Below are positions 2,405-64,000 of a stretch of 64,000 bases of DNA, one piece after another (positions within the stretch are counted from its first letter, which is position 1; each line of letters opens with the position of its first letter). The position numbers and the translations under genes are program-made. The notes beneath the pieces were generated by a model, which was not told where the DNA came from, did not search any database, and saw only the letters and a list, made by a program, of their open reading frames with translations. Source of the DNA: Macrolepiota albuminosa (taxonomy: Eukaryota; Basidiomycota; Agaricomycetes; Agaricales; Agaricaceae); the NCBI GenBank assembly GCA_027475525.1, contig JAMWFC010000049.1:2836947-2900946 (forward strand), written 5' to 3'.

Positions 2405-2755
2405 ACCAATGTCAGCGCCATCTTGGACTGTTAGGGTATGGAAGTGTAAACAAGTTATAGGCAAACGGACCCCGGGCCGGCTCGTGGTTGCCTTATTAAG
2501 GCAACCTTGGGCCTGGGCGAAGTATTGTATATTATTGCTATAACTAATATACATTGGGCTGTGGAGGGAGGGCTGCTCGAAAAATACAGCGCAGACCCTA
2601 CGTGACTAGGAGGAAGATCACTGCTAAGTTAACGGCTCTATCCTCCGAAATATTATGCTTACCTGGGAGGAAGATCACTGAGATGAGGAACCTTGCAGGT
2701 CTCAAATTGGTCGTGATCTCCTCCCAGGTCACCTGATCATCACTTCAGGGGACAA
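2405..2755. repeat. Internally deleted DIRS-like element (termini only)
   Basis: 2405-2545 closely matches 13856-13996, the left end of the DIRS-like element. 2570-2755 closely matches the reverse complement of 18138-18298, from its right end. The two pieces lie almost adjacent here, with no gag, RT or recombinase between, so this is a termini-only derivative. Divergence is a few percent by eye. Confidence 0.6.
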
Positions 2756-3054
2756 GTGGCTTGTCATGCATGCAGATATCAGGGACAGGAGACTACAGTG
2801 CTGGTGCATGTATAACTTATGTTGATTTTTGACTCGTGTTTAAGCATTGGCAGAACTGACTACTGTTTGATATGTATGTCGTCACGTTTAAGAAAAAGCC
2901 CAATACAGGGAAGGTTGTCGTTGCTTGGCAGCTTCTGCAGTAAATAGCCTAGAAAGACTTAGGGCCTGGCAGCTGATAGACAATGGGAAGCCAGGAGGAG
3001 CCTTATCTGACCCTCACACACAATCCAAAACTGGAAGCACTGAGACAAGTCCAT
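2756..3054. other. Unassigned spacer
   Basis: Contains a short open frame from 2925 without recognisable similarity. Nothing else supported. Confidence 0.3.
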
Positions 3055-3213
3055 TGATGATGCCAACTGTGGTTGGGTGCACTGTTTGCTACATCTCAAG
3101 ATGTCATCTCCAGCACTTGGTGTAAGGGCGTGAGAGTTGGGGCAGGGGTCCTGGTGTGCTTGAGTAAGATAGCTAAGTTGGTGTGCTAGAGTTGAGCACT
3201 TTGGACCCTAACC

Positions 3214-3507
3214 TGTAAGGACAACCTCTGGAGGCTATGGCTCAGAGGAAAACTCTGGATGTTAGAAGTCAGAAAGACAAACTCTGGCTTATATAAGCAG
3301 TCTGGAAGCAGTGCTGAAGAGCCCACACTTGTCTGAATGATAGCTAAAGAACTAGAGCACCTCAAAGGTTGAGAATAGTACTAACAGATAGTGTTGAGAG
3401 AATAGAAACAACACAATGAGAGAATGATAGAAGAAATAAGAAAATGAATGAAAGGAGAGTGAAGGAATAAGAAGTGAAAGAAGAAAGGAATGAGGAGTCC
3501 CCTGACA
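3214..3507 (-). repeat. LTR of chromovirus family A, minus strand
   Basis: On the minus strand it runs TGTCAGGGGACTCCTC to CCTTACA, like the LTRs at 6945-7265 and 12687-12998. The adjoining purine tract (AAAGGGGGGG on the minus strand, next to 3508) matches the polypurine tract at 12674-12684, so it is the 3' LTR of a minus-strand element. Confidence 0.75.
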
Positions 3508-46700: not shown

Positions 46701-47018
46701 ATGTGCATGAATTTTCCTACTAGGATGGTGTTTAAGGAACCGACTACAACTGACCAAAAAGGAAGCTCAAAAGGCATAAAAAGATGGAAGGTGCCTGTGT
46801 TCCTGTGGCAGCACAAGACATATATGATTGAGCATACTAATCAGGGATTCAGTGGTTTGCAAGGAAACTGAGGTTTGTTTGACCACTCATCTAGTTTCAG
46901 AAGGTATTTTTGCTGTTTATCTTGGGGCAGCAAATGGTCAATGGGTCTTGGCCCTTGGATCTGGGCAGAAAGGACTTGAACATAGAAAGTTTGTTATTCA
47001 ACTGAGCCCAGGGTAGGG
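46701..47018. other. Unassigned left flank of the KDZ transposon
   Basis: Short frames on both strands (minus: NNKLSMFKSFLPRSKGQ). Possibly the other half of a sequence split by the transposon (see 63658-64000). No family recognised. Confidence 0.3.
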
Positions 47019-47640
47019 CATCACAACGGTACGTGTCATACGTTGTATGGGAGCCCGCTTTGTGCCGTACCATACGTGTCCAGCGGAGTCCGCTACACTG
47101 GAGCGGAGCAGTCCCCACAGTGCCGTAGAATACAGAGCCGCGGACGTGTCACAATGTGCTGTATGACACGGTCCAGTGGATCGATAAAAGGCGGGCACAC
47201 ACATGCGCATGCAGGCCCGGCAGATGCCAGCGGACACTAGCGGACGTCAATGTGCGTCAGCGGCTGCCGGCGGGCATCAGCACACGAGTGAAAACCTCCT
47301 CCATTGGCGGACTTCATGGCATGAATAAACCCTCCTCGAGGTTCCCCATTTCCCTCCCCTCTCCATTCCTCCCCGCAATAACTCGAGGCTGCGCGTCTCC
47401 CCTTCCATCCTTTTCCCACCCCCGACGCCAGCGTACGTCCACGAAAGGGCCCTGAAAATCTACGCAGGCCTACGCAAGCCACCAGCGGACATCCACGCAG
47501 ACGTACGTCGACGGACTCAAACCTACGCGGGCCCTCCCAGGCCTGCGCAGGACACCAGCGGACATCCACAGAGGCCTACGCAGGTCCACGGGGTCTGGTT
47601 GGACCAAGAAAAAAGGTAACGTCGACTTGCCCGTCGTATG

Positions 47641-47718
47641 CCTGTGGGGGGGAATCGAACCCCCGGCCTTGGGAAAGCCTCCAGCAACGGAACGCACATT
47701 TAACCGTTGCACCACAGG
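47641..47718 (-). tRNA. tRNA-like sequence in left TIR
   Basis: 78 nt with a perfect 7-bp acceptor stem (CCTGTGG/CCACAGG), a perfect 5-bp T-stem (GGGGG TTCGATT CCCCC), A box TGGTGCAACGG and B box GGTTCGATTCC. The anticodon arm folds poorly: the best fit (stem GTTCC, loop GTTGCTG) would give UGC with a mismatch and leave a long variable region, so identity and function are uncertain. Confidence 0.6.
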
Positions 47719-48428
47719 TCCGTTACTAACGGATAGATTCAAAGGTCAGATAACACAATGAACGGACGCCCACCTACGTTTCCGCAGGTTCCCGTATGGA
47801 TTTTTTGAGGTGGAAGGGGGGTGGCATACCTCCCAAAAGAGTTTTCGTGGCCTGAAAGGGGTGTTGGCATCAGCAGCCATCAGCTGGCCATCAGCTGGCC
47901 ATCAGCTGGCATCCGTCGGAGTTCGCCGGCAGCCGTCGTGACCCGCTGGCATCCGTCGGCATCCGTCGTGCATCCGTCGGCATTCGCCGGATATCCGCTG
48001 GTATCCGTCGGAATCCATGGGAATCCGTCGGCAACCCCCGGCATCGTCCGGCATCGTCCGGCATCAGGGCGGGAGAGAAGGAAACGGGGTGCGTGGGTGT
48101 CCGCCGCATGGGGTGGCGTCTCGGAGAGCGTGGGGGGTGGCGGAAGAGGGATGGGGAAGGGGAGGAGCGTGGGTGTCCGCTGGTACCCCAGCGGACGTAG
48201 CAGACGTCGGACGTCAGGTCAGGGGGGAGGAGGGAAGCGGGGTGCATGTGGTGGACGGGGGTGGCGTGTGAGGTAGTGTGGGGAGTGGAGAGGATGGCAC
48301 TGGGGAGAAAGAGGGGGAAGGGTGGAAGAGGGTGCGTGAGTGTCTGCTGTCCGCTGGCATGCCAGCGGACGGTAGCGGACGGTAGCTGACATCGGCATGT
48401 GAGCCAGCTGACGTCAGCGGTGCAACCA

Positions 48429-48507
48429 GTCCCAGTGGTTCAGTGGAATATTCATTTATTGATATTCAATATTGTGTACAGTGGTGGGTTCTACTCCTAC
48501 TTCACCT
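48429..48507 (+). tRNA. Degenerate tRNA-like sequence, left TIR
   Basis: AGTGGTTCAGTGGAATATTC (A-box-like) and GGTGGGTTCTACTCC (B-box-like). The acceptor arms do not pair well. Mirror copy at 62221-62298 on the minus strand. Likely a tRNA-derived relic. Confidence 0.35.
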
Positions 48508-48888
48508 TAACAGGGACTAATGCTGTGTTTTTATATGGGTGCATTTTTGCTCTACATATACATCGCACTGACCTGGAGTATGCGCCTGTGGTAGTGGATC
48601 TGACCAAAACTCTAGGAATTACTGAAGCGAGATAGGATGGAGGAGTTGACACATGAGATCGTTCCAGCGCTCATGACAAGTGACGATACACCAGGGCTGA
48701 CTACTTTTTTTACAAAGATCAGCACAGAGGTAGTCAGCCACAGTGCATTATCAACTTGTCATGAGCACTGGAATGAACACATGCGCGAACTCGTCCATCT
48801 TATGCCGCTGCAGAAATCTTTGGAGTTTTCAATGGATCAAATTCATGACGCTAGCGGACGTCAGCGGCCTGCTGCTATTATATAATGT

Positions 48889-48969
48889 GAACTAGTGGGA
48901 GTCGAACCCACTTCTTGTGCACAATATGAAATATCAATTGATGAATATTCCATTCTACCACAGGCGCTT
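48889..48969 (-). tRNA. tRNA-like sequence, left TIR
   Basis: A box TGGTAGAATGG, T-arm GTGGG TTCGACT CCCAC with B box GGTTCGACTCC. The middle is AT-rich (TCAATTGATATTTCATATTG). The acceptor ends do not pair. Mirror at 61758-61838. Confidence 0.45.
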
Positions 48970-49472
48970 GCTACAAGTCAGGACGGTGTTCATGTAGTGC
49001 ACAAGCGGACCCATACAGAATTTGAACGGATAGAGATTTTACTGCAACTGGTGCATCTGTATTGAATTGACAATATTAGACTGATATTTATTTACACCAT
49101 AGAAGTATACAGGAAAGAGGAAAAGTACAGCGGTGGGTTCTACTCCCTCTACTCCACCTTAATGGGGTCTAATAGTGACAATGGAATATTGAGGGGCGGG
49201 TTGGACTCCTGCTAGTGACAAATATTTTAATAGGGCCTGTAAGCCCTAATAAAATATCCGTTCATCACTCGCTAGCATCATCAAGTTGATCCGTTAAAAA
49301 CGCTAGAAATTACTGAAGCGGGTATGGGTTGGCCGAAGTTGCGCATAGTCACGAGATCTGGAATGACCACATGCGCAAAGACGATCAACCCATGCCACTG
49401 CAGAAATCTCTGGAGTTTTAAACGGATCACATTAATGATGCTAGCAGACATCAGCGGCCTGCTGCTCTAATA

Positions 49473-49553
49473 TGCACTAGCAGGAGTCGAACCCACCTCT
49501 TGTGCACAATATGAAATATCAATTTATCAATATTCCATTGTACCACAGGCGCT
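49473..49553 (-). tRNA. tRNA-like sequence, left subterminal
   Basis: Close relative of the 48889-48969 unit: GTACAATGGAATATTGATAA start and B box GGTTCGACTCC. The A box is slightly degenerate (TGGTACAATGG). Confidence 0.4.
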
Positions 49554-49751
49554 TACTTAGAAGGGGGTCAAACCTGCCTGTCAGTGGCCTATGGTAGTTG
49601 ATCTGACCCACTCAATTTTCAGTATTGTGTGGAGTGGCAGGTTCAACTCCCCTAGTTCAGACTTCCCTAGTCCACCATAATGACATATAATGGTGTCTTT
49701 TTATACTGCTGCATTTTTGCACTAGATGTAAACTGTACTAATTTTTGGTAA

Positions 49752-49832
49752 GGATCTGTGGTCGAATGGAATATTGATACATTGATATTTCATATTGTGC
49801 ACAAGAGCCGGGTTCGAATCCCACTAGTGCAC
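49752..49832 (+). tRNA. tRNA-like sequence, left subterminal
   Basis: GGATCTG then A box TGGTCGAATGG and exact B box GGTTCGAATCC, ending CACTAGTGCAC. Related to the TIR unit; acceptor pairing is weak. Confidence 0.4.
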
Positions 49833-50272
49833 ATCATTAGACATGACATAACTTTGTTTTACTAATTGTTATTTACGTCTATATTCTTTCTACTGCCCAA
49901 TTCGAGGGTTCGAGTCCCCCTTGTGTAATCGTTGAAGAGTGTGTTGTTTTTTGCGTTCATGAGAGTGGCATAACGGAACAAAACAATGGGACGGTTAATC
50001 TTAGTGGACCTGAGTCCTGTCCAAACTAATTGAAATGTCTGTAGTAAAGTGCTGTAGCCTAGTACACAATACTAGAGTGATATTTATGTATAATCCACAG
50101 AATGTCCTGTGGTCTAGCAGAATATTGTCAGTTTATGTTCCTTCTAGTGCACAACTGGAGGTAACGGATCAAACGGATTTATAATGGATTCGTCAGCGGC
50201 ACAACGGGACGGTTAATCTTGACGAAAAATAACCAACGGAAAAGCCAAGAATTATAGTAACTAAGGATTAAA

Positions 50273-52316
50273 TTACTCGTCCGATGTGTATTCCTCCTCT
50301 TCATTAGATTCATGTAATGTGTCTGAATAGAACAAATCCTCATGAAGCAGGTAGTCTGCTGTCAAAAATGCAAAGTCGTCCGGTGTATATGGCCCTTGAG
50401 GTCTGGGAAGTGTGATGTCTTCATACTTTGCTATCAGGCCTGACGATGAAGATGGTGAGGGTGACTCTGACATATCAACAGACACATCATCAGTACGGCC
50501 AGCTTGATTGAAAGGGCCAATGGGCCTACATCGACCATGTTTTGCTCTAGCGCGAAATTCTTGTTCTGTTGAAATAAATTAACTATGATTACCAGTGCCA
50601 AATTATACTCACGTTGTTGATACAATTCGTTAATTCTTCTCTGATCCTCACGTCGAGTCATACGTGACTCATATTCCTCCCACTCCCGGACATTGTTACC
50701 AGTAGGTAGGGTTGGGGAAGGAGATTGTTGGAAGGGGGAAGACGGGATTTGAAGAGCCGTTACATCAAAAAGCGGTGGAAGATTTTCTTCGTCATCGGCT
50801 GCCATGCCTCCATCCGTCTCTTCTGCCGTCACAAGAAATAGCGGCGGAAGGTTTTCTTCGTCCTCGGTCGCCATACGTCCGCCGCTCCGGACTTCCGTTT
50901 GTCCGCCGTCACCAGCCGCCACGGTCTCCACGTCCATCTCCTCTTCCGCAGGAATGAACAAAGGGGGCAAATCATTGTCTTCGGTCTCCTCTTCCGCAGG
51001 AATGAACAAAGGAGGCAAAGAATCCTCTTCCATCTCCTCTTGCGCAGGAATGAACAAAGGCGGCAAAGATTCGTCTTCCGTCTCCTCTTCCGCAGGAATG
51101 AACAAAGGCGGCAAAGATTCGTCTTCCGTCTCCTCTTCCGCAGGAATGAACAAAGGAGGGATACCCTCTAAGTCAGGGTCACTAATGGATGGATTAGGGA
51201 TATCCACCTGGTCGTCGTCAGTTTCCCCCAGCTCCCTGAATGTCCCACGGACATGAGCTGCTGGGGCGGAAGGAAGTTGGGATGCCGGTTGAACCACAAC
51301 GCGAGAGTTTTCCATTGTAGGGCCATACACCAGTCCAGGTTTACTCTGACTGTAGAGGTGGTGGAATGGATGTTGTGTGTTCGAGGGTTCGATATGTGTC
51401 AAGGATGGCCATTGGGGAGAGTCGACATCAGGGAGAGTGGTAGGATGCGCCATGGAGAGGCAGTCTTGAGGATCAGGCTGCTCACCATCAATACTGTTGG
51501 TATGGGACTTGATGCCTGTCAATTGGCCCGTCCGAGCAGGATCCACGGACCTGGCAACGGAACTGACAACGGAAGCAGCAATGGACTTGCTGCCAGCAAA
51601 CAGGCGGATCATATCGTTGGCCGTTGGCACATGTTCCGTCCTATCCAGCGACCGCCACTTGTCTAGGGCTAGAAGCGTCCGCTGGTGGCCCCTGGTGGAT
51701 CCGCTACCTGCAAACACACGGAGCAAATCGTCTGGTGCTGGGACGGACACCAATCCATCGGATGGCAATGTCATGGGCGGCCGGCGGTTGCATGCCAAGA
51801 AGCTTTCAAGAGAGTGGAAGCCTTGCTGATGTACGAGAAGGCAATGCTCCAGCGTTTCATTGCTTAAGACCTGAACATCCTCTCGGCCAATGTGGTTCCA
51901 CCAATCACAGCCATACAGATTTCTAATAAGACCTTGACGGCCATCAACAAACTCCAGGATCTCTGTGGGCAAAGTTTGCTGATTTTGGAGAGGGAAAAAT
52001 CGGCTCATGCTTTTGATAATGTCTGGGACATTGCAGACCACATTATTCAGTGATGCAGCCCCCAGATATGACAATACAAAGTTCTATGGCACACAGTCAG
52101 ATCCTAATATATTTACACATTTTGAAGTCATCTTACCAACTCCTTGTCTAGATGCTGGATAATCCATGCCTCTTCCGCTTCAAGACTTGGCGCAAGATTG
52201 CCAAATATGGAAAGTGCTGCAATGAGGCGTGACTCAATGTAGTCAACAACCTCTTGCAAATTTTCTAGTACAGTAGCTTGGGACATGACATTGTGTGGTA
52301 CAGAGGTAGACGCCAT
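50273..52316 (-). CDS. Acidic protein with repeated PPLF motifs (KDZ cargo)
   Basis: Three exons: 52137-52316, 50613-52083, 50273-50565; GT-AG introns of 53 and 47 bp; 647 aa, no stop. The N-terminal about 150 aa are helical and unrecognised (ESRLIAALSIFGNLAPSLEA, GFHSLESFLACNRRPP). Residues about 364-500 contain seven PPLF motifs; five are in exact 16-aa (48-bp) repeats of the type LPPLFIPAEEETEDES, two in looser ones. The C-terminus is again acidic (SNEEEEYTSDE). Short hydrophobic motifs in an acidic disordered region look like activation-domain or docking motifs, but that is inference. It shares the minus strand with the transposase, whose stop is 198 bp upstream of this ATG. Confidence 0.7.
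50761..51175 (-). repeat. Coding tandem repeat (PPLF units)
   Basis: GCAGGAATGAACAAAGG recurs at 50948, 50996, 51044, 51092 and 51140, an exact 48-bp period; two more divergent units lie at 50761-50880. The period keeps the frame. Confidence 0.9.
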
Positions 52317-52514
52317 TGCACTCTTGCTTGTAGAAGGGGATACTGCTATGTATTAGATTTTTGTGCCTTGTAAACAAAAGTGATTTTCAACAATTCCATT
52401 GCACGTGACTGTCACAAATCCGTTCCAATCATCTGCTGATGGCAGCAAGCTGCATCCGTCACATCAATCCGTCTCTGCATCCGTCACATCAATCCGTCTC
52501 TGCATCCACCATTT

Positions 52515-55500
52515 TCACAGCGGATCTCTTGCAGTTTGGGGGGGAATAAAATCAGGAAGCACCCGCCTAAATTTATCAATTGCCATCGAGGCCAATTCTT
52601 GCCACATGGCCACCTTTTTGTGGGCATATGACTGGAGACCTCTTTTCTTCACTGACATACCACGCTTCGACCAAATATCTGCCTGGTTGAAGAAATACTG
52701 AACTGTCCACTCCATTTCACTCGTGACAAGCTGACATTCCTCTGTCCATCTGCTGCGTTGTGCTCTAGCACGTAGATAATGAACACGATTAACTGAAGAG
52801 ATATGTTCACGAACGGATGTAATGATAACGGAAATGTTAACAAGAGGACTCACATTCAGAAATAGTTGCAGATTCATTTTCTGCATCAGAATTAGAGTGC
52901 CATATCCAAGATACCTTGATCCTTGATGAACCAGGAATGTTGGGATCTCGTATAGCTGTGCTTGCATTCAAATCCGCTTTCTGTAGAACTGGATACTTTC
53001 TCTGAATGCTGGGGTCCGATCCCAGTCGCAGCAGAGCACTGCGGCATTGTGCATAGGCACGAGCCTTCACCAGGATTGAGGCCTGGATTCTTTGAAGAGA
53101 TGCGCGAGCTCGAGTTTTCACATTCTTGCTTGGGGCGACCCAGACGACGTGAGAATATAGGAATGATTTCTCTGCAATGAATTCCCGAAGGGCTTGCAGG
53201 AGCCTTTCAATTTGAATCAAGCGCAGATTGCGCTCTATCATTGTTAATGGTGAGACATTACCCATGATCATAGATGGGAAGGAGATTTCAAAATCTTCTG
53301 GAACAACTACATCCGTTGGTTCAAGGTTATCCGCTGGCGGTACCAGCGGATCCGCTGGTTGTCCATCTTCTGCCATTTCATTGTCGTCAAAGGCTCCGGG
53401 AACTTCATCCGGTTCCAGGGGGGCAGTCCGCCTTCCACCAGCAATGAACCCGCTCCTGTCCTGAGAAGCAGCAAGGACATTGAGTCGAACCCTTAATATT
53501 TCTCTTTCCGCCTCGACCTTTTGCCGATCATCATTGCTTGCATGCCGATTCAAACGGCGAACCTGGTCCTGAATTGCAATTCTGAGCTTCCAATTAGTGA
53601 AATAGTTTGGGCCATCAGCAATACACCTTACTGCTGCTCCTCAATGTCAAGGGCAAGTTGAATCCAGAAGGAATGAATATCCATCGCTGCAACATCCGTT
53701 GAGTAGTTTCCACTGTCTGCTGCCATTCGGTCTTCACTTGCACTATTGAAGGTCATTGTACGAGCTTTCAGAATATCCATTGCTTTACAGTTTCCCTCCT
53801 CTCTGAGCCTTTCTGCCTTAGCTATTCCGGCTTCCCAGCTTGTTAGTAAATCCGTTGATATTCCGACGGATCGCTCGGTGAAATATTGAACGGCTGCATC
53901 TCTCATCTCAACAGCAGTCCTGTACTTTCGACATAGGAATGGAACCATGTCAAGCAGCTTCTTCCAGTTTGAGTCACACATGTGATCATCAAGGATTTCT
54001 GCCCGATGTGCCAAGGTAGCCGTACGGGCCATCTGTGAGACTTCATTTAGTGTAGACCAGAGACTTTCAATTATCTCCCCAGCCAAATGACCGGCCCCAG
54101 GAATGAAGGACGGGGCAAAGCAGAAAAAACAATCCTCCTTATGCCCATGGACATGAAGAAGTCCTATTGCAAAGTCCACGAGTAGATTATCTGGCAGGAC
54201 TTCTCCGGCCTCGGCAAGCCGTTCAGAAAATTTGACACACCACTGGCATGCTATGTCATATACCAGTAGGAGACGCTGAATCCCATCCATGTTGGTCGTC
54301 TTAACTGCCCGTGTGATGGAAAAGTCTGTGTAAACCTGGCCTTCACCACGGGTCAAGTTTGTTACACTATTAGGAGCAAAGCAGCCGTGCCGTGTACATG
54401 CCGTTGCAACAATACCAGTAATGTCGCATGACTTGTTCATCATCAGGGCCTTTTCAATAGCTTTGAATGTGTTTTCACAGGCGGCTCCCTGGACAGCCGG
54501 AGGTCCAGCGGATGGCCGACGGACAGGATTGAATTGATGAGCGGACGGCGGACAGGTAGAGTTAAAGAATGTCACTCACCGTTGGCTGTTCCTTTGCGCG
54601 CTTGAGATAGTGGGTGAGCTCATCCCTCCTGGCCATCATACCACCGCCTTCTGAATGCCATACATCATGAGCAGGATTAGAATGTCGGACGTGATCCGCC
54701 TTGAAGTTGCCATCCATCATTAAAGAACGATTGAACTTCCACCGGACGGGATCTTCTTCCCAGTTGGATGGAAGATTGACTCCTGGTTGGGGACAAGTTG
54801 GACAGAATATTGCAAGTTCACCACGGTCCGGCGCCATGGGATGCCTCGATTCATCATGGCCAAAGCCTGCCCACTTCAACTTCTTCAGCCACCGCCATGA
54901 ACGAGAAAGTCGTCGTAGCTCACGGTAAAGGTTATCCACCTCACCAGAAGATGCAATCAGGGAAGTTATTCTTGCAATTTTCTGCCAGTACTGGTAGGCG
55001 GATGCTTTGCACTCTAGATTTGTCAGACGGAAGTCGTCCAGCACAGCTGTTGTAAAATATGTTTGTGTCCGATCAAATGTACTGGGGACCAGCTGCGAGC
55101 GGATGGTATCCTCCACCAAGACATCCATCCCAGAACACTCACATGAAATGACAGTGATGTAGTGTACTCCAGTTGTGTGAACAATCCGTTGTATTGGATT
55201 CCCAAAGCAATCATATCTGTCCATACGGAACCCGTTCGTGGCTGGCCGATCTTCTGGAATATCTTCTATTGGCACATTATTCTCTGGGTCCTCTTGCTCT
55301 TCCTCTTCCATGATTTGATCAAGGCTGGCATCCTGAAGTCTGCTCAGGAAATCTGAAGTCATGGATGGATGCGCTGCCGGATGTCCCGGATCGCTATCCG
55401 CTGATGGAAGTTCAACATCCAGTTGATATTCGAGTCGTAGAAACTCTTGCTCCTGAATGTCCTTTTTCCGCTCGTGGTCCTCAAGAGCCCTGACCCTGAC

Positions 55501-56150
55501 CTTCCCTTGATGACAGTTTGCATGCAATGAATTGTGTTGGATATAGAAATACCCTCCAGTATCCGACATATTCATTGGTTGGAAATACCTACCATTCCAT
55601 ACTTCAGGTCGGTGAAACGGGTTGGAGTCGTGCGTGCGGCGGAAACATCCGCGACAGAATATTCTTGACCCAATGCAATCACGGCATCGCCATCGTGCGA
55701 GGTAATGGTCAGGACAAGCAAGGCAATCAGTAACGTCATCCATTGATTCACGACCAAGCAATCCATTGAGCAACTGTGGAACATGGTTGATGAAGTCGTT
55801 AAGATAATCTGCCTGTGTCTATGTATGAACTTGAATAATTCGCTCTCAATAATAGCATACATTCAAATCACCTTTACATGCCTTATGGATACGGGCATTG
55901 TATTATCTACATCATCTACCGTTGGATTATTGTCCAAGTGTGCAAAGTTATCATCATCTGCAAATGCCGCAGATGGTGCACCAGTTACAATGGGAGCGGG
56001 ACCCAGTGGTAGCCGTTGTGTTATGAGGACTGGCAACCCTCGTGTGTTCTGAGTGAGTCGTGTCCTTTCCTCAGCAAACGGGATGAGGTCCCTTTGTCTG
56101 ATGACTGTTGTTTTTGGTCGCTTGCGTTTCTTTAGAGAGTTCAGGTTCAT
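52515..56150 (-). CDS. KDZ transposase with N-terminal CxC cysteine cluster
   Basis: Five exons: 55872-56150, 54580-55812, 53632-54488, 52854-53581, 52515-52792. GT-AG introns are 59, 91, 50 and 61 bp, phases 0, 0, 2 and 1; the product is 1124 aa with no stop. Basic N-terminus (LKKRKRPK); CxC2-like cluster at about 123-170 (CLACPDHYLARWRCRDCIGS, CRGCFRR); Cys/His block CTRHGCF; KDZ catalytic core with YDIACQWC (Asp about 582), LLVDFAIGLLHVHGHKEDCF and GAGHLAGEIIESLWSTLNE (Glu about 645); conserved C-terminal part (LQKADLNASTAIRDPNIPGS, VTSEMEWTVQYF). This is the Kyakuja-Dileera-Zisupton family, RNase H-fold cut-and-paste transposases expanded in basidiomycetes. Length and motifs look complete. 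Confidence 0.9.
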
Positions 56151-56392
56151 GATCAAAATATCTATGGCCAGGACCTAGCCATTGTACGGGATATCTAATG
56201 AGACCGCTCATCGATATCGGCAATATGCCCCAATTTGGACGGGCCGGATACCAGCGGACAGCGGACCCTATCCGTCGAAGACAAACGGAATCCGTTTGTC
56301 ATCAACGGACACTGAACGGAAAATCTATATTTTATCATGTGATCCTTCGGTTGAGAACTGTGTGGTTGCAGAAAATTATATTGTCTACAAAC
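56151..56392. promoter_or_regulatory. Bidirectional promoter with CGG-N3-CCG palindrome
   Basis: 242 bp between the divergent ATGs of the transposase and the 689-aa gene. Holds the perfect inverted repeat ACAAACGGAATCCGTTTGT at 56281-56299 (CGGAATCCG core) and further CGGA/TCCG copies (CAGCGGACAGCGGACC, TATCCGTC, AACGGACACTGAACGGA). Inverted CGG triplets are the classical target of Zn2Cys6 regulators, one of which this element encodes. Confidence 0.6.
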
Positions 56393-58694
56393 ATGTCTGC
56401 CCTCCTGCAACCGCCTGAACCAATATTTTCACCAAAGAAAAGACGAGTGGAACCGATATTTACAGCGGAAGAAAGATCTATCTTTGAACCATACAAGGAA
56501 CTCTACCGCTCCTCAACTACTCCTCAAGCTCGGACTGCTATCTTGAAGGATAAAATCCTAACGGATATTTTCAACTACTGGGCCACTAAGGGGACAGAGC
56601 CAAAGACAGGGGAAGAGTGGGCAGAGAGAATCAAAGTAGGTACAGCAACTCATTGCAAAGAACTAGACATCATTTGCTTGAATAGAAGGTTGTCCAGTAT
56701 ATCAAGAATTGCTGGCGCCCTTATTACCAGCATAAAGATCCAAAGGTGCTCCTGAAAACTTCACTGCAAGATGTTGTCCGGCAGACAATGGCAAAGGAGA
56801 TAAACGAGGAGATCCAGAACTTGTTGAGGGGTAAGGATCACAACGCCTCGGGATTGGATGCATTTGCACAATATAATGTGGCTGTCAAAAATGTTATGCA
56901 TCAACTCACACCGCAGGAGGAAAGTCGTTTACGGAAGATGGCGGCAGAATGGAGCGAAAAAGGAAATCCGCCAGAAATTCAGCGCAAGTTGGTACTGCTT
57001 CCATCCCCCATCCGTCCTCTATTCGTTGTACATCCGTCCGCTTGATTCCGCTTTCTAATCGTTGTCTCTCCAGGAAGGCCCGAAAGCACGGTTTGAAGCG
57101 TGTGGACGATGCAGATGTGCTTCGATTTAGAGAGATGGGCATGTTGAGTTGGACTGTTGTTGGTTGGTATGCAGATGAAGGCATGACTATTAGAATGTAT
57201 GTGGTGCCATCATTCTTTAAACAATTTTGACACCAATTATAGTCATGACAATATGTCATACTTGACCCATGCTAACCGACCTACCTTTCAAGACTCCTTT
57301 CCTGACCTTGTTAGTGACCTCAACAAGAAGATGATGGATTACATGTCTGCTCTTCTTGGTAGAGACATGCCGTCCAACATGCAATCACCCCATGATTTGA
57401 CTCCTCCTATCCTTACACGCCATGACCTCATCCTTGATCTGGATAGGGATGGATTCCCAATATTACCAGCAGATCCAGGACCAAATATATTTCAAACTCG
57501 GGCAGAATTGGAAATGCTTGTCCGGGACTATCTAAATACTCATTACAGTGAATCCTAGTTTTCTCCACCTTTGCTCATCATCTGATCACCCCATCAGAAA
57601 TTGTGTCTGGTTACCGTTATGAATCTGCTCCTTACAAGGCAGTGAGGACCAATGATCAGCAATTCATACATTCAAGGTATCTTCCAGAGGGTCTGATATT
57701 CCAAGATCCTCATAATCTTGGTCGGCCTGAGCTATTGCGTCTGCTGAACTTCTGGAGAGACCGTCAAGGACAGTATGGATCCGGTGATACCTTCCGCTGG
57801 ACGGTTTATCTCAACCGTCACAAGCAGCCAGTAGCTGCCGAGTACGGCACCCGAGCTGATCGTGAAAAAAATGCGGCAGCAGCAGCAGCACGTAAGGCTA
57901 CACGCAAAAATGGAGGGAAAAATCGGAAACAGAGGCCAACACCATCAGCGGTAGTCGATGGCAACAGTAGGACCATTGCTAATGATGGAGCCGCTGATGG
58001 CGGATCCGCTTTAGTCACCGGATCTGCGGTAGTCGATGGCAACAGTAGGACCATTGCTAATGATGGAGCCGCTGATGGCGGATCCGCTTTAGTCACCGGA
58101 TCTGCAGCCAACTTGGAGTGGCAACGGGGGCCTACACTTCCCCTGTCACCTAGCGTACCACACACACCACTGCCTGACTTACAGGAGGAACCTCCTGTCT
58201 TGCGCTCACCGCACACTCCCCAGCCTCAGCGCCACAACAGATCCACGGTTCACAACGAATCCCGACCAAATGTATCAGCTTCCGCTCACGACGAGTCCGC
58301 TCTCGACGAATCCGTTCATGACGGATGTGTTGATGATACAGCAGTGGTAGATGCCACTACCATCCACCTCTTACAACAAAGAGGATGGAGCCATCCAGAC
58401 CCTCCAATTAATGGCCCTAGTGATGGTTCCCCTAGATATAGAGTGTCAAGAAGGGTGCTCGACATTCTTCAAGATGAGGACAATGACCAATTTGAAGGTG
58501 AGGGAAGGCCGGCATTACAAAACCAAAAGAAGCGCAAGGCATTGCCTAACCAATTGTCAACAAATTCCAAGCGACCCCGCAAGTCTCAAGCACAAATGTT
58601 ACAGGAGGATGCAGCTCGATACATTGATATGTCTACACCAGCAAAAAGGAGTAGCAGCCGCACTAAGGTCATTCAACCAGTCCGCCGTCATTGA
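56393..58694 (+). CDS. 689-aa conserved-looking protein of unknown function (KDZ cargo)
   Basis: Five exons: 56393-56635, 56686-56987, 57074-57196, 57243-57547, 57598-58694; all GT-AG and the frame closes at 58694. N-terminal helical region (IFTAEERSIFEPYKELYRSS, VVRQTMAKEINEEIQNLLRG), a compact middle (GMLSWTVVGWYADEG, LTRHDLILDLDRDGFPIL), a Trp/Arg block (LLRLLNFWRDRQGQYGSG), a basic Ala/Lys tract (AAAAAARKATRKNGGKNRKQ) and a disordered tail with likely nuclear signals (QKKRKALPNQ, SKRPRKSQ). A 78-bp exact tandem duplication (57949-58104) repeats AVVDGNSRTIANDGAADGGS. No known domain is recognised. Divergent from the transposase, it may act in transposition or its control. Confidence 0.65.
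57949..58104 (+). repeat. 78-bp coding tandem duplication
   Basis: Two copies starting GCGGTAGTCGATGGCAACAG, essentially identical, in frame (26 aa each). Identity suggests a recent event. Confidence 0.85.
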
Positions 58695-58798
58695 TGTGGG
58701 GAAGGGGGGAATGTTATATTACATTTTGTAAACTATAGGGTTACAAAAATGTACGAATGTGTGTCATAATGAAAAAAAAAATATGTGATTGTCCATCT

Positions 58799-60694
58799 TC
58801 ACTTCTCTTCTGTTGCCTTCCGTCTCTCAGTAAGCCGACTGGATGATCGGGTCCGTTGCATCGGCGGCCGACTACTTTGAGAGTTGCTGCAAGCCCGTCC
58901 CCTTGGGCCAGGGAGAGGGTCCTCGGCAGGGACTGGGACGGAAGATGGTTGAGGGGGTGACGGAGATGTTCGTGCGGGAGTCGTCCCTGAGGATGTTTGT
59001 TGAAGCGGGGACGGAGCAACGGTGAGAGCGGATAAGTCAGCGGCGTAATGGGATTGGTCAGTGGCAAGGGCAGAGGTGTCACCAGTGGGAACGGATATGT
59101 CAGCAGTGGCAGGGGATTGGTCAGCGATGGGGTCAGGAGTGGTTTCTTCCTCTTCAACGATGGGTCCAAGTCCACTGTGCCCTGTTGGATGCACTGCCAC
59201 ATCATCCTGAGCTGACGGACTGGAGGGACGGGTAGAGATGTGAAGTTGATTCTGCAAAGTGTCAACCACACCCCAAATATTGCGGATCTGCTCTTCCGTC
59301 TGACGGATACGTCCGGCGTGGTCTTCAAGTGTCTCACCCGCAAGAGAAACATTCGTTTGCAGGGTTTCTATGCGGCCACCGAGCGTGTCGACCTGAGTCT
59401 GGTAGCGACGGAAGAAGTCCTCAATACACGGTAACCAGCTCGCCTCAGCCGTGACAAACCCGTCCCGCACCTGCTCCCCAACATTCCGCAATGCTTCCTG
59501 GAACCCATTCTCCATCCTGTCCAAACGGCTCTCCACCCCTGCCATTACACCAGCCACAATGTCCTCACTGTGGCTAGACTCCATTGCCCGCTCCTTGCCC
59601 TTTCCCTTGACCGGAAGAGGGTCCACTGGGCGGTTGGAGGTCGACGGTTGGGATGGACGGACGGACGGTTTTGATGGTCCCGCGATTGGACTGGTTGGTT
59701 CATCTGCTAACTATTGGTTAGCTATTTGAGCAGGAAAAGAGTTTCATACCGTCATCACTCTCAATAATCGTCACTGACTTCTTTCTCAGTGGTTTTTTCC
59801 CCTTTCCCTTGTTGCTGGGCTTGACGGTTTTCTTGACAATCGTCAGGCTGCATGTTCGTTTGCGAATGAGCCGGCAGGGATCGCATGCGGTGCCGCCCTT
59901 TGTCCTGACACACTGTAGCCGCTTACTTGTGCAATATTGGCAAGGGGGGTTGATGTGCTGACCCTCGCGACGAGGTGCTGTCCTCAGATACCTGCCCAAC
60001 AGCATCCCTCCAGTAATTTCCCCCTTCGGTATTCTGCCCTCTTGTTCTTCCTCTTCCTCTTCCTCTTCATCCTCGTCCTCATCCTCGTCCTCCTGCTCCT
60101 TCTGTCGACGATAGGTACCAGGAGGAGGTTGACCAATATAGGTCACCCGTTTTGGCTTCTTGGGATTTGGCGACGGACCAGACAAATCTCCTGCCGCTGG
60201 AGGACTCGGTCGTTTTCTCTTCTTCGGAATCGGTGACGGACCAGACGAATCTCCTGCTGCTGGCCTATGACCTATCCGGTCTTCTCGTGCCGGTGCCGTC
60301 GACGGACCGGCCTCGGTCGACGGATCAGGTCATTCTTCGCCCCCACTTGGTTCCTCCCCCCTTCCGCTCCTCTGGGTCCATTTCTTCGCAGCGTCCTTCA
60401 ACCGCCTGGTCATATTCTCGTCAGAAAGCTTGCTCTGGAGTAGCGGGATAACTTCGTTGATGAAACTTCTCCTGGCATCAAGGAGGAGTTTCTTGTCATC
60501 CTTGACGTCCCTAACCTTGAACCACATGTCAATCTACAGGACGACTATTAGTGCATGTCTATTAGGCAGGAGTGCTTGTATCTTACCAGGTCCTTCTGCT
60601 GTGCTTTGAGTTGTCGCAGGTCTCCTCTGAGAGCAAGGTATAATACTCGAACATCCGTGTCAACGACCCGTTGGTGGAGTTCTTCGTTAGACAT
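58799..60694 (-). CDS. Zn(II)2Cys6 and coiled-coil protein (KDZ cargo)
   Basis: ATG 60694 (MSNEELHQRVV). Exons 60587-60694, 60347-60533, 59750-60283, 58799-59703. The 63-nt GT-AG intron 60284-60346 is my proposal: it removes an in-frame TGA at 60330-60332, keeps the frame and contains a CTGAT branch-like site; without it the ORF has one stop at codon 104 of 598. Product about 577 aa: helical N-terminus, Pro/Lys stretch, long Asp/Glu run, then CQYCTSKRLQC and CDPCRLIRKRTC, spaced C-x2-C-x6-C-x8-C-x2-C-x7-C as in fungal Zn2Cys6 DNA-binding clusters. The C-terminal half has a coiled coil (VMAGVESRLDRMENGFQEAL, VDTLGGRIETLQTNVSLAGE) suited to dimerisation. A DNA-binding role at CGG triplets is inferred. 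Confidence 0.6.
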
Positions 60695-60890
60695 GGCGGA
60701 TGGAGGATTAAAGAAACGGACGAGAACTTTACACAAAGCAAGTTCTGAAAATAGATATCATGTGACCCTGTTTAAGTTACAAAAGAAGTTTGATTTATTG
60801 CTTGACAAAACCTTACTTTGTTTATCTTACAGTTTAGTAAATAACAATTAGCTAAGCAGGCCAAAAAAGGCAAACGTCTTAATGTTCATT

Positions 60891-60969
60891 GCACTAAGCA
60901 GGAGTCGAACCCACCTACTGCAACACACAATAAAGACCAATGGATAATATTCCACTAGACCATGAATGC
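60891..60969 (-). tRNA. tRNA-like unit 1 of right array
   Basis: 79 nt. Acceptor GCATTCA/TTAGTGC pairs at six of seven positions; A box TGGTCTAGTGG; B box GGTTCGACTCC. The anticodon arm (CCATTGGTCTTTATTGTGTG) does not fold cleanly. A pol III transcript is plausible; a working tRNA is doubtful. Confidence 0.5.
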
Positions 60970-61105
60970 TTACTGTATACTGCTATAGTCTAAATAGATA
61001 TCATGTCACTCTGTTTAAATTAGGACCTTACTTTGTTTATTATACTGTGTAGTAAATAACAATTAGCTAAGCAGGTCAAAAATTGCAAACGTTTTAATGT
61101 TCATT

Positions 61106-61184
61106 GCACCAAGCAGGAGTCGAACCCACCTACTGCAACACACAATGAAGACCAATGGATAATATTCCACTAGATTATCGATGC
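61106..61184 (-). tRNA. tRNA-like unit 2 of right array
   Basis: 79 nt, acceptor GCATCGA/TTGGTGC pairs at all seven positions with wobbles, B box GGTTCGACTCC. The A box is degenerate (ATAATCTAGTGG). Substitutions in both acceptor strands keep pairing relative to unit 1. Confidence 0.5.
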
Positions 61185-61303
61185 TTACTGTACACTGCTA
61201 TAGTCTAAATAGATATCATGTCACTATGTTTAAATTAGGACCTTACTTGGTTTATCATACTGTGTAGTAAATAACAATTAGCTAAAAACAGTGAGACGAA
61301 AAT

Positions 61304-61381
61304 GCACTAGTAGGAATCGAACCCGTCTACTGCAAGACATAATAAAGACCAATGGATAATATTCCACTAGACCACCAATGC
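61304..61381 (-). tRNA. tRNA-like unit 3 of right array
   Basis: 78 nt, acceptor GCATTGG/CTAGTGC pairs at seven positions with wobbles, A box TGGTCTAGTGG, B box GGTTCGATTCC. Confidence 0.5.
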
Positions 61382-61462
61382 TTACTTTACATTGCTATAA
61401 TGTAAATAAACATCAGTCTATTCTTCTGTGTGTGGTCAAAAATATTTGAGTTCGATCTCAAT

Positions 61463-61540
61463 ACACTAGAGGGAGTCGAACCCACCTAATGCAAGATACA
61501 AGGAATACCAATGAGAAATATTCCACTACACCACAGATGC
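61463..61540 (-). tRNA. tRNA-like unit 4 of right array
   Basis: 78 nt, begins GCATCTG, A box TGGTGTAGTGG, B box GGTTCGACTCC. The acceptor 3' strand (CTAGTGT) pairs poorly. The surrounding unit is diverged from units 1-3. Confidence 0.4.
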
Positions 61541-61757
61541 TTCATGTATAATGCTATGGTGTAAATCAATATCAGTCCAACATTCCGCTACAAACCATGG
61601 TTTTCCTCTTTCCTGTATACTTCTATGGTGTAAATAAATATCAGTCTAATATTGTCAATTCAATACAGATGCACCAGTTGCAGTAAAATCTCTATCCGTT
61701 CAAATTCTGTATGGGTCCGTTTGTGCACTACATGAACACCGTCCTGACTTGTAGCAA

Positions 61758-61838
61758 GCGCCTGTGGTAGAATGGAATATTCATCAATTGATATTTCATA
61801 TTGTGCACAAGAAGTGGGTTCGACTCCCACTAGTTCAC
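61758..61838 (+). tRNA. tRNA-like sequence, right TIR
   Basis: Mirror of 48889-48969, with identical A and B boxes. Confidence 0.45.
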
Positions 61839-62220
61839 ATTATATAATAACAGCAGGCCGCTGACGTCCGCTAGCGTCATGAATTTGATCCGTTGAAAAC
61901 TCCAGAGATTTCTGCAGCGGGATAAGATGGACGAGTCGACGCATGTGGTCATTCCAGTGCTCATGACCAGTTGATAATACACTGTGGCGGGCTACCTTTG
62001 TGCTGGCCTTTGTAAAAAAGGTAGTCAGCCCTAGTGTATCGTCACTTGTCATGTGAACTGGAATGATTTCATGTGTCAACTCCTCCATCCTTTCTCGTTT
62101 CAGTAATTCCTAGAGTTTTGGTCAGATCCACTACCACAGGCGCATACTCCAGGTCAGTGCGATGTATATGTAGAGCAAAAATGCACCCATATAAAAACAC
62201 AGCATTAGTCCCTGTTAAGG

Positions 62221-62298
62221 TGAAGTAGGAGTAGAACCCACCACTGTACACAATATTGAATATCAATAAATGAATATTCCACTGAACCACTGGGACTG
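62221..62298 (-). tRNA. Degenerate tRNA-like sequence, right TIR
   Basis: Mirror of 48429-48507, with the same B-box-like GGTTCTACTCC. Confidence 0.35.
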
Positions 62299-62957
62299 GT
62301 TGCACCGCTGACGTCAGCTGGCTCACATGCCGACGTCAGCTACCGTCCGCTACCGTCCGCTGGCATGCCAGCGGACAGCGGACACTCACGCACCCTCTTC
62401 CACCCTTCCCCCTCTTTCTCCCCAGTGCCATCCTCTCCACTCCCCACACTACCTCACACGCCACCCCCGTCCACCACATGCACCCCGCTTCCCTCCTCCC
62501 CCCTGACCTGACGTCCGACGTCTGCTACGTCCGCTGGGGTACCAGCGGACACCCACGCTCCTCCCCTTCCCCCTTCCCCCTCTTTGTCCCCACCCCCATC
62601 CCTCTTCCGCCACCCCCCACACTCTCCAAGACGCCACCCCATGCGGCGGACACCCACGCACCCCGTTTCCTTCTCTCCCGCCCTGATGCCGGACGATGCC
62701 GGGGGTTGCCGACGGATTCCCGTGGATTCCGACGGATGCCGACGGATGCCAGCGGGTCACGACGGCTGCCGGCGAACTCCGACGGATGCCAGCTGATGGC
62801 TGCTGATGCCAACGCCCCTTTCAGGCCACGAAAACTCTTTTGGGAGGTATGCCACCCCCCTTCCACCTCAAAAAATCCATACAGGAACCTGCGGAAACGT
62901 AGGTGGGCGTCCGTTCATTGTGTTATCCGACCTTTGAATCTATCCGTTAGTAACGGA

Positions 62958-63035
62958 CCTGTGGTGCAACGGTTAAATGTGTGTTCCGTTGCTGGAGGCT
63001 TTCCCAAGGCCGGGGGTTCAATTCCCCCCCACAGG
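62958..63035 (+). tRNA. tRNA-like sequence in right TIR
   Basis: Mirror copy of 47641-47718. The acceptor stem is intact; the T-loop reads TTCAATT instead of TTCGATT, and there is one change before the anticodon stem. Confidence 0.55.
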
Positions 63036-63657
63036 CATACGACGGGCAAGTCGACGTTACCTTTTTTCTTGGTCCAACCAGACCCCGTGGACCTGCGTAG
63101 GCCTCTGTGGATGTCCGCTGGTGTCCTGCGCAGGCCTGGGAGGGCCCGCGTAGGTTTGAGTCCGTCGACGTACGTCTGCATGGATGTCCGCTGGTGGCTT
63201 GCGTAGGCCTGCGTAGATTTTCAGGGCCCTTTCGTGGACGTACGCTGGCGTCGGGGGTGGGAAAAGGATGGAAGGGGAGACGCGCAGCCTCGAGTTATTG
63301 CGGGGAGGAATGGAGAGGGGAGGGAAATGGGGAACCTCGAGGAGGGTTTATTCATGCCATGAAGTCCGCCAATGGAGGAGGTTTTCACTCGTGTGCTGAT
63401 GCCCGCCGGCAGCCGCTGACGCACATTGACGTCCGCTAGTGTCCGCTGGCATCTGCCGGGCCTGCATGCGCATGTGTGTGCCCGCCTTTTATCGATCCAC
63501 TGGACCGTGTCATACAGCACATTGTGACACGTCCGCGGCTCTGTATTCTACGGCACTGTGGGGACTGCTCCGCTCCAGTATAGCGGACTCCGCTGGACAC
63601 GTATGGTACGGCACAAAGCAGGCTCCTGTACAACGTATGACACGTACCGTTGTGATG

Positions 63658-64000
63658 TCTCTATGTGCTGAGCCATTCTTGCTACATGTTGTTGGTTAAG
63701 GCATTCCTGCCAAACATATGCATGAAAATCATCTATGCAAAATGTGTGCAAATCCAAGATGAATAGTACATGCAGTTGATGATTGTAATTGAAGATGACA
63801 TCAAACTAGACCTTCATGTCAGGCAGGTTTTTAAAATAGTTGAAATATCCTTTGAAAGAGTCAGCAATTTTGATAACAATAGGTCTCCCTGCACCATGCT
63901 CATCTTCAGCATGCATGTGCTTATGCATTGTGGCCATCAGATTGGCACCAGCACTGACCCACTTGTTAAACAAAAGCTTGCTCTCTCTAGAGGTATTGAA
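63658..64000 (-). pseudogene. Unrecognised coding-like remnant at right edge
   Basis: Minus-strand frame reads SRESKLLFNKWVSAGANLMA, HAEDEHGAGRPIVIKIADSF and then, after one stop, LHTFCIDDFHAYVWQECLNQ. It runs up to the transposon boundary at 63657, so the KDZ element may have landed in it. Family unknown; the right edge of the window cuts it. Confidence 0.35.

Follow-up and report, generated by a model that had tools for sequence, protein, structure and literature searches.

A 64,000-nucleotide stretch of the genome of the basidiomycete Macrolepiota albuminosa (C114:2836947-2900946; hereafter the window) harbors a 16,659-bp DNA transposon, almost certainly of the KDZ (Kyakuja-Dileera-Zisupton) group, that carries one short motif, DTCCGYY (RRCGGAH on the other strand), along its entire length. 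This motif is the most unusual property of the element and was absent from an earlier, sequence-only reading of the window, which had described a complete transposon with cargo genes. In our judgment, the best overall explanation, to which we give an about even chance, is a recently amplified multi-gene KDZ element, nearest to Kyakuja, whose motif would serve to mark the element as self.

Two questions remain open: by what means a long transposon stays unsilenced from end to end, and by what means its transposase distinguishes the ends of the element from host DNA over 16 kb. In fungi, captured TET/JBP enzymes are one proposed answer to transposon silencing (PMC12730594). The present family may offer a testable alternative to TET/JBP, with a visible word and a candidate reader in the same element, and with natural controls in the other KDZ lineages of the same genome, the sampled parts of which lack the word. 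If self-marking were true, codon choice in transposon genes would carry DNA-level information, and the coding sequence would at the same time serve as a closely packed set of protein-binding sites, which would be new for a transposon. In addition, a group that is poorly described gains a reference element with defined ends and four genes, several copies of which differ by less than 1%.

A short motif along the whole element

In a survey of 6-mers in the gene region, GACGGA, AGCGGA, ACGGAT and their kin were the most over-represented words, and TCCGYY was found at 91 sites, compared with 17.1 +/- 4.2 (maximum 33) in 200 sequences generated from a dinucleotide model. Extending TCCGYY by a first position of A, G or T yields DTCCGYY, of which there are 151 sites between 47009 and 63667 (9.06/kb), with a median gap of 41.5 bp and a longest gap of 868 bp. 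The sites are distributed over the inverted repeats, the noncoding core and all four genes, and they occur on both strands and in several reading frames, suggesting that the motif is a feature of the DNA itself. Among 1260 permuted patterns with the same letters, its density ranks first.

Five full copies of the element were compared: the window copy, C107, C105, C52 and C6, the last with one gap of 100 Ns. All of them are dense in the motif (8.26-9.99/kb; z 25-31, 50 shuffles each), while positions 1-47001 of the window contain it at 0.64/kb (z -0.9), making the element approximately 14-fold denser. The same boundary is seen at 51 distinct ends of the family (60 minus duplicates), with 10.74 sites/kb in the first 840 bp inside and 0.20/kb in the 1000 bp outside. 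Seven loci of other KDZ families in the same genome, sampled over 3.4-3.8 kb each and none similar to the element, have only 0.26-1.41 sites/kb; they represent three lineages (L002-L004, which are identical, together with L008, 91% like them; L005 and L006, which are alike; and L001). An eighth KDZ locus, L007, lies inside a copy of the element's own family and carries the motif at 8.23/kb. No comparable element-wide word was found within the 3.4-3.8 kb of each of the other loci: the top word of L005 is a local cluster of nine GCGCTA in approximately 740 bp (2546-3283) near the KDZ match, that of L008 and L002 is a trinucleotide repeat, and that of L001 is weakly raised.

The enrichment extends into coding sequence, with exons carrying 6-9 sites/kb. 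Compared with 300 codon shuffles per gene, which keep the protein and the codon set, the four genes hold 21, 16, 13 and 16 sites against means of 6.8, 5.2, 4.3 and 5.0, respectively, and in no gene did any shuffle reach the observed count. Masking of tandem repeats leaves 55 sites in the four genes together, against 17.3 +/- 3.7 (maximum 28) in 500 codon shuffles. Outside the genes, the noncoding core has 19 sites in 1280 bp, and the terminal inverted repeats (TIRs) with the subterminal parts have 51 sites in 5767 bp (8.8/kb) after exclusion of the tandem arrays. Only two of the 12 introns, 54489-54579 and 56988-57073, contain the motif, with four sites each; these are the two longest.

Proposed self-marking and its alternatives

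We propose that the KDZ transposase would cut at the CA..TG ends of the element and join them to staggered cuts in the target, and that a DNA-binding protein encoded by the element, most likely the product of gene 4 acting through a Zn2Cys6-type cluster, would read the CGG core of the motif and coat the element along its full length, marking it as self. Such a mark might either keep the element from silencing, as VANC does on VANDAL elements, or help to bring the distant ends together, and within the genes the identity word would be kept through synonymous codon choice. Repeated units with A and B boxes in the ends of the element (see below) may bind TFIIIC or polymerase III and thereby act as insulators or small-RNA promoters. 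Self-marking by an element-encoded protein seems to us almost as probable as not. The fuller proposal, an element-wide identity code read by the element's own zinc-cluster protein with polymerase-III-type units as end boundaries, is plausible, although we lean somewhat against it, and the designation of gene 4 as the putative reader is tentative and may well prove wrong.

Gene 4 (58799..60694, minus strand; exons 60587-60694, 59750-60533 and 58799-59706; 599 aa in C105) contains the pattern C-x2-C-x6-C-x8-C-x2-C-x7-C at 59850..59942 (minus strand), downstream of a premature stop in the window copy. Zn2Cys6 proteins typically read CGG and follow the consensus C-x2-C-x6-C-x5..12-C-x2-C-x6..8-C, which has a single match in the six frames of the window, that in gene 4. 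All six cysteines are kept in C52. No paper on transposon-encoded Zn2Cys6 proteins with dispersed motifs was found among the openly accessible papers searched. The nearest working precedent for self-marking, cited as an analogy and with no homology claimed, would be the Arabidopsis VANDAL elements, which also carry a repeated short motif read by a protein of their own: VANC is encoded by VANDAL, binds YAGTATTAY in noncoding tandem repeats and lifts silencing over the whole element (PMC5735166, PMC10398659). The VANC motifs, of 8-9 bp, are situated in noncoding tandem repeats and their binding has been demonstrated, whereas the present motif also fills coding sequence and its reader is a putative one.

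The main rival is a model drawn from maize Ac, in which the motif would be a transposase-binding site that spread inwards and has no anti-silencing role. The ends of Ac/Ds repeatedly contain a hexamer with CGG, AAACGG, which the Ac transposase binds in the 200-bp subterminal regions (PMC3260210); this hexamer resembles the AACGGA of the present motif, and the TIRs of the element are motif-dense, both without their tandem arrays (8.8/kb) and in the first 840 bp of the 51 ends (10.74/kb). However, the Ac/Ds repeats are subterminal and belong to another transposase family (hAT), while the present motif is element-wide. Sites for end recognition would be expected at the ends, but density is no lower in the noncoding core (19 sites per 1280 bp) and the exons also carry 6-9 sites/kb, and we regard this model as unlikely. 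We give a similarly low probability to the explanation that the motif is functionless, a by-product of mutation bias, of old tandem repeats or of a codon habit in the lineage. Tandem arrays in the element do include the motif, individual sites show no clear excess of conservation over control CG heptamers, and the observed/expected CpG ratio, calculated with the motif sites left out, is 0.67 inside the element and 0.50 outside, indicating that base composition differs somewhat. Nevertheless, the enrichment over all four genes survives tandem masking and codon shuffling, the motif occupies both strands and ranks first among its permutations, and the 14-fold difference in density from positions 1-47001 of the window is far above the difference in CpG.

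Several observations weigh against self-marking and against gene 4 as the reader. Eight of the 51 ends are gap-ridden or have three or fewer sites inside, and the low counts (0-3 sites) are due to N gaps in some of these ends and not in others. Gene 3 alone, with tandem repeats masked, shows no clear enrichment (5 sites, compared with a mean of 2.1 and a maximum of 6 in the shuffles), and the sites show no standout fixed spacing or dimer arrangement. Between the window copy and C52, 56 of 82 motif sites are identical, a share only slightly above that of control CG heptamers, 489 of 797 (56/75 and 489/736, respectively, when counted from C52). Young copies give a control-like or mixed picture: 10 of 97 motif sites of C105 are changed in the window copy (controls 87/887), and 2 of 89 sites of the window copy are changed in C105 (controls 37/837). 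This conservation test is weak in either direction, since dead copies decay neutrally. On the protein side, Pfam Zn_clus falls below the cut-off on a gene 4 fragment (E 0.38; 11.4 bits against 21) and has no listed match on the full gene 4 protein, the single-sequence structure prediction of the fragment was uninformative (predicted local distance difference test, pLDDT, 50.8), and the gene itself is disrupted ahead of the cluster in the window copy and inside it in C52. Protection of the motif CpGs from decay was rejected as unsupported.

Ends, genes and classification

The earlier reading had placed the full element at 47019 to 63657. These positions do bound the inverted repeats, whose arms measure approximately 2.1 kb in the window copy as had been stated, but a comparison of flanks across family copies puts the true ends 10 bp further out on each side, at 47009 and 63667. 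The left TIR (47019..49124, plus strand) matches the right TIR (61601..63657, minus strand) in pieces that are 89-100% complementary, with indels; among copies, the length of the TIR match ranges from 0.8 kb to 2.15 kb. Flank similarity runs 10 bp past the inverted repeat on both sides, and a typical family end there consists of one of two 10-bp tags, in the window copy CAGGGTAGGG on the left (47009..47018, plus strand), which has no inverted-repeat partner, and CACATAGAGA, read inwards, on the right (63658..63667, minus strand). Both tags start with CA when read inwards, giving CA..TG termini. Outside the tags, the window copy is flanked by a 7-bp duplication, CTGAGCC (47002..47008 and 63668..63674). 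With the tags included, the element measures 16,659 bp. Exact 7-bp duplications were found in 20 of the 22 end pairs tested, none of the 20 reaching 8 bp, and the two failures are among five copies that are collapsed around 100-N assembly gaps. The TIR also holds a long imperfect hairpin (48661-48777), for which a MIR161 family match scored 25.5 bits against a threshold of 90.

With splice sites predicted from the sequence, the KDZ transposase gene (52515..56150, minus strand; exons 55872-56150, 54580-55812, 53632-54488, 52915-53581 and 52515-52880) retains the five exons described before and now encodes 1133 aa, compared with 1124 aa in the former model. Its product contains the KDZ domain (154.6 bits against a Pfam cut-off of 26.6, E 4e-45) and the CxC2 domain (54.3 bits against 27, E 2e-14). 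The three further spliced genes reported between the same TIRs were likewise recovered as gene models: gene 4, described above, gene 2 (50273..52316, minus strand; exons 52137-52316, 50613-52083 and 50273-50565; 647 aa) and gene 3 (56393..58694, plus strand; exons 56393-56635, 56686-56987, 57074-57196, 57243-57547 and 57598-58694; 689 aa), the latter two with no significant Pfam match. The description of the element as complete and open-framed holds for three of the four genes; in the window copy, gene 4 has a premature stop at 60330-60332 (codon 104), a position occupied by a sense codon in C105 and C107. A PDB sequence search with the first ~790 transposase residues and a plasmid search returned nothing informative, and Tet_JBP had no match in the gene products (Pfam) or in the genome, in searches run without a positive control.

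The term cargo, which had been applied to genes 2 to 4, appears misleading. It would fit if a large KDZ transposon had picked up three passenger host genes, and none of genes 2-4 has a Pfam match tying it to transposition. However, wherever these genes were found near a transposase they were always on the same side and strand, each has 117 to 217 matches in the genome, and all four genes show purifying selection in the comparison of the window copy with C52, with ratios of replacement to silent differences (pN/pS) of 0.30 for the transposase (p 8.5e-9), 0.51 for gene 2 (1.9e-4), 0.44 for gene 3 (0.011) and 0.40 for gene 4 (4.1e-6). Given this selection, we read all four genes as probable integral parts of the element, and passenger genes as a very improbable explanation. 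Weighing against this reading, gene 4 shows no purifying signal relative to C105, with 3 silent and 14 replacement changes; in that comparison, with few changes, no gene reaches significance for selection.

The linkage data compare 40 transposase copies at >=97% with part of the genome matches of each gene, exon pieces being counted apart (63 of 117 for gene 2, 70 of 153 for gene 4 and 54 of 217 for gene 3). Among the matches listed, gene 2 was near 30 of the 40 transposase copies, gene 3 near 25 and gene 4 near 30, and three copies had no listed neighbour gene. Conversely, for 34 of the 63 gene 2 matches listed there is no >=97% transposase exon at a distance of 6 kb or less, and 16 of the 34 likewise lack a listed gene 3 or gene 4; of these 16, at least six lie near a KDZ match, and one sits in an end pair. 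Decayed or deleted copies, together with the limited number of matches listed, account for much of this pattern of lone matches.

As to classification, membership of the KDZ group, which was reportedly named by Iyer et al. in 2014, is the most secure of our assignments, and the KDZ and CxC2 domains, the CA..TG ends and the 7-bp duplications suggest a placement nearest to Kyakuja. We would not call the element a Kyakuja, because its 2.1-kb TIRs lie inside 10-bp unpaired tags. Kyakuja elements of Laccaria bicolor and other Agaricomycetes share with the present element a KDZ transposase, a 7-bp target duplication and CA..TG termini, but the two L. bicolor families, Kyakuja-1_LB and -2_LB, are described as having no TIRs and as carrying TET/JBP, which our searches did not find, again without a positive control; the PE-type TET/JBP was detected there through structure-based comparison only (PMC12730594). 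The 8-bp duplication of Zisupton and Dileera occurs in none of the 20 pairs. With anti-silencing systems of the VANDAL/VANC type the element shares a family-specific repeated motif. PlavakaB, suggested by the CATCA..TGATG ends, is made less likely both by the KDZ domain and by a duplication length of 7 bp. Cryptococcus KDZ1-KDZ3 are also mobile, multi-kb elements with a KDZ transposase and TIRs, but they are 9-11 kb long with TIRs of 139-241 bp, a CxC1 domain and duplications of 8 bp (KDZ1) or 4-8 bp (KDZ2/3) (PMC12810828). No description of an element such as the present one was found in the openly accessible papers searched on KDZ, Kyakuja and tRNA-like or polymerase III ends (including PMC12810828, PMC9674265 and PMC8290104).

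A/B-box units and genomic copies

The tRNA-like content noted earlier does not correspond to true tRNA genes, of which ARAGORN finds none, and consists of 12 units that each combine an A box (mostly TGGTNNANTGG) with a B box (mostly GGTTCGANTCC), 51-53 bases apart from start to start in 11 of the 12 and 55 bases in the remaining one. No such unit occurs elsewhere in the window, and the mean number in 100 random sequences with matched dinucleotide composition was 0.0. The outer units are located at 47651..47714 (minus strand), with a cloverleaf-like fold and a T6 run 36 nt downstream, and at 62962..63025 (plus strand) in the right arm. Five inner units lie on the left, at 48436-48497 (+), 48898-48960 (-), 49483-49545 (-), 49585-49650 (+) and 49759-49821 (+), and five units on the right, at 60901-60962 (-), 61313-61374 (-), 61472-61533 (-), 61765-61827 (+) and 62228-62289 (-). 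Within 60 nt downstream, a run of four or more Ts follows 9 of the 12 units (random positions 21%) and a run of five or more follows 7 (7%), although these counts are not independent, since the units of the two arms are copies of each other. The best Rfam tRNA-clan match, an 18-base fragment of a tmRNA T arm, reached 18.5 bits where the threshold is 47, and the same clan gave two further matches that were weaker still. We therefore reject true tRNA genes and read these features as probable polymerase-III-type units.

For the outer unit, folding gives a cloverleaf with three arms (z -3.0). Across 33 distinct versions, 97.1% of cells pair and six cells change on both sides, and the covariation exceeds all 500 shuffles, whereas the number of pairs with two-sided changes is not above the shuffles (74 of 500 reach the same number), a modest result; the unit is also not more conserved than the TIR around it. 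An alternative is that the units are tRNA-derived short interspersed nuclear elements inserted into the ends by chance, in keeping with inner units that are repeated and mutually related and with the regular spacing of the two boxes. However, all five full copies carry 7-12 units, and of the 304 exact genomic matches to the inner type, 96 of roughly the first 100 in the list are no more than 12 kb away from an end or a gene of the family, making chance insertion quite improbable.

In the genome searched (100.1 Mb, 129 contigs), a degenerate pattern of the family end has 193 matches and its reversed control none, so that the expectation of further copies sharing these ends was borne out. Exact tags make up 175 of the 193 (91 left and 84 right). 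Pairing, which used approximately 185 of the ends and accepted facing pairs less than 30 kb apart, gave 47 pairs, with three elements counted twice through duplicated ends; 46 of the 47 join one left with one right tag, making the polarity of the ends firm. A genome search recovered at least 40 copies at >=97% over the KDZ exon. The cores of four of the full copies are 0.43-0.78% apart, with C52 4.0-4.4% away, a pattern that is consistent with an older split followed by a recent burst and supports the recent activity proposed earlier, as recent amplification.

Some apparent copies and frame breaks reflect the assembly. Five miniature derivatives of 249-410 bp were rejected, as each contains a 100-N assembly gap. 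In 292 kb of partly overlapping loci there are 67 exact 77-bp tandem duplications (58 distinct sequences), none of them in the window or in C105; these are probably unmerged k-mer overlaps at contig joins that break frames falsely, and matching insertions of 76-78 bp account for some of the broken frames of C107, C6 and C52. In C105, the transposase and gene 2 carry single-base deletions that are not associated with such joins.

The orientation of the gene core relative to the end tags was scored in 35 of the 47 pairs, after removal of five gap-collapsed pairs, three short ones, one R-R pair and three with duplicate ends. Ten pairs are oriented as in the window, two of these being the window copy and its twin, 23 are inverted and two could be assigned to neither class; the window copy and C105, both free of the 77-bp duplications, have opposite orientations. 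Recombination between the long TIRs would explain both orientations, with assembly error, as suggested by the 77-bp duplications at other loci, as the alternative. A tree built for the core inversion had no supported branch, and orientation was not clustered.

Three shorter copies, C24:591811-604783, C88:229445-240850 and C45:1400058-1408271, retain some of genes 2-4 with no listed transposase match and are likely non-autonomous deletion forms. The window copy (C114:2883955-2900613) has a twin of the same length at C114:3235437-3252095, 351,482 bp away. A 3.2-kb left-end locus is identical in the two, and gene matches at 2742099 and 3093581 show the same offset, which suggests that a block of perhaps 150 kb or more was duplicated, either really or in the assembly.

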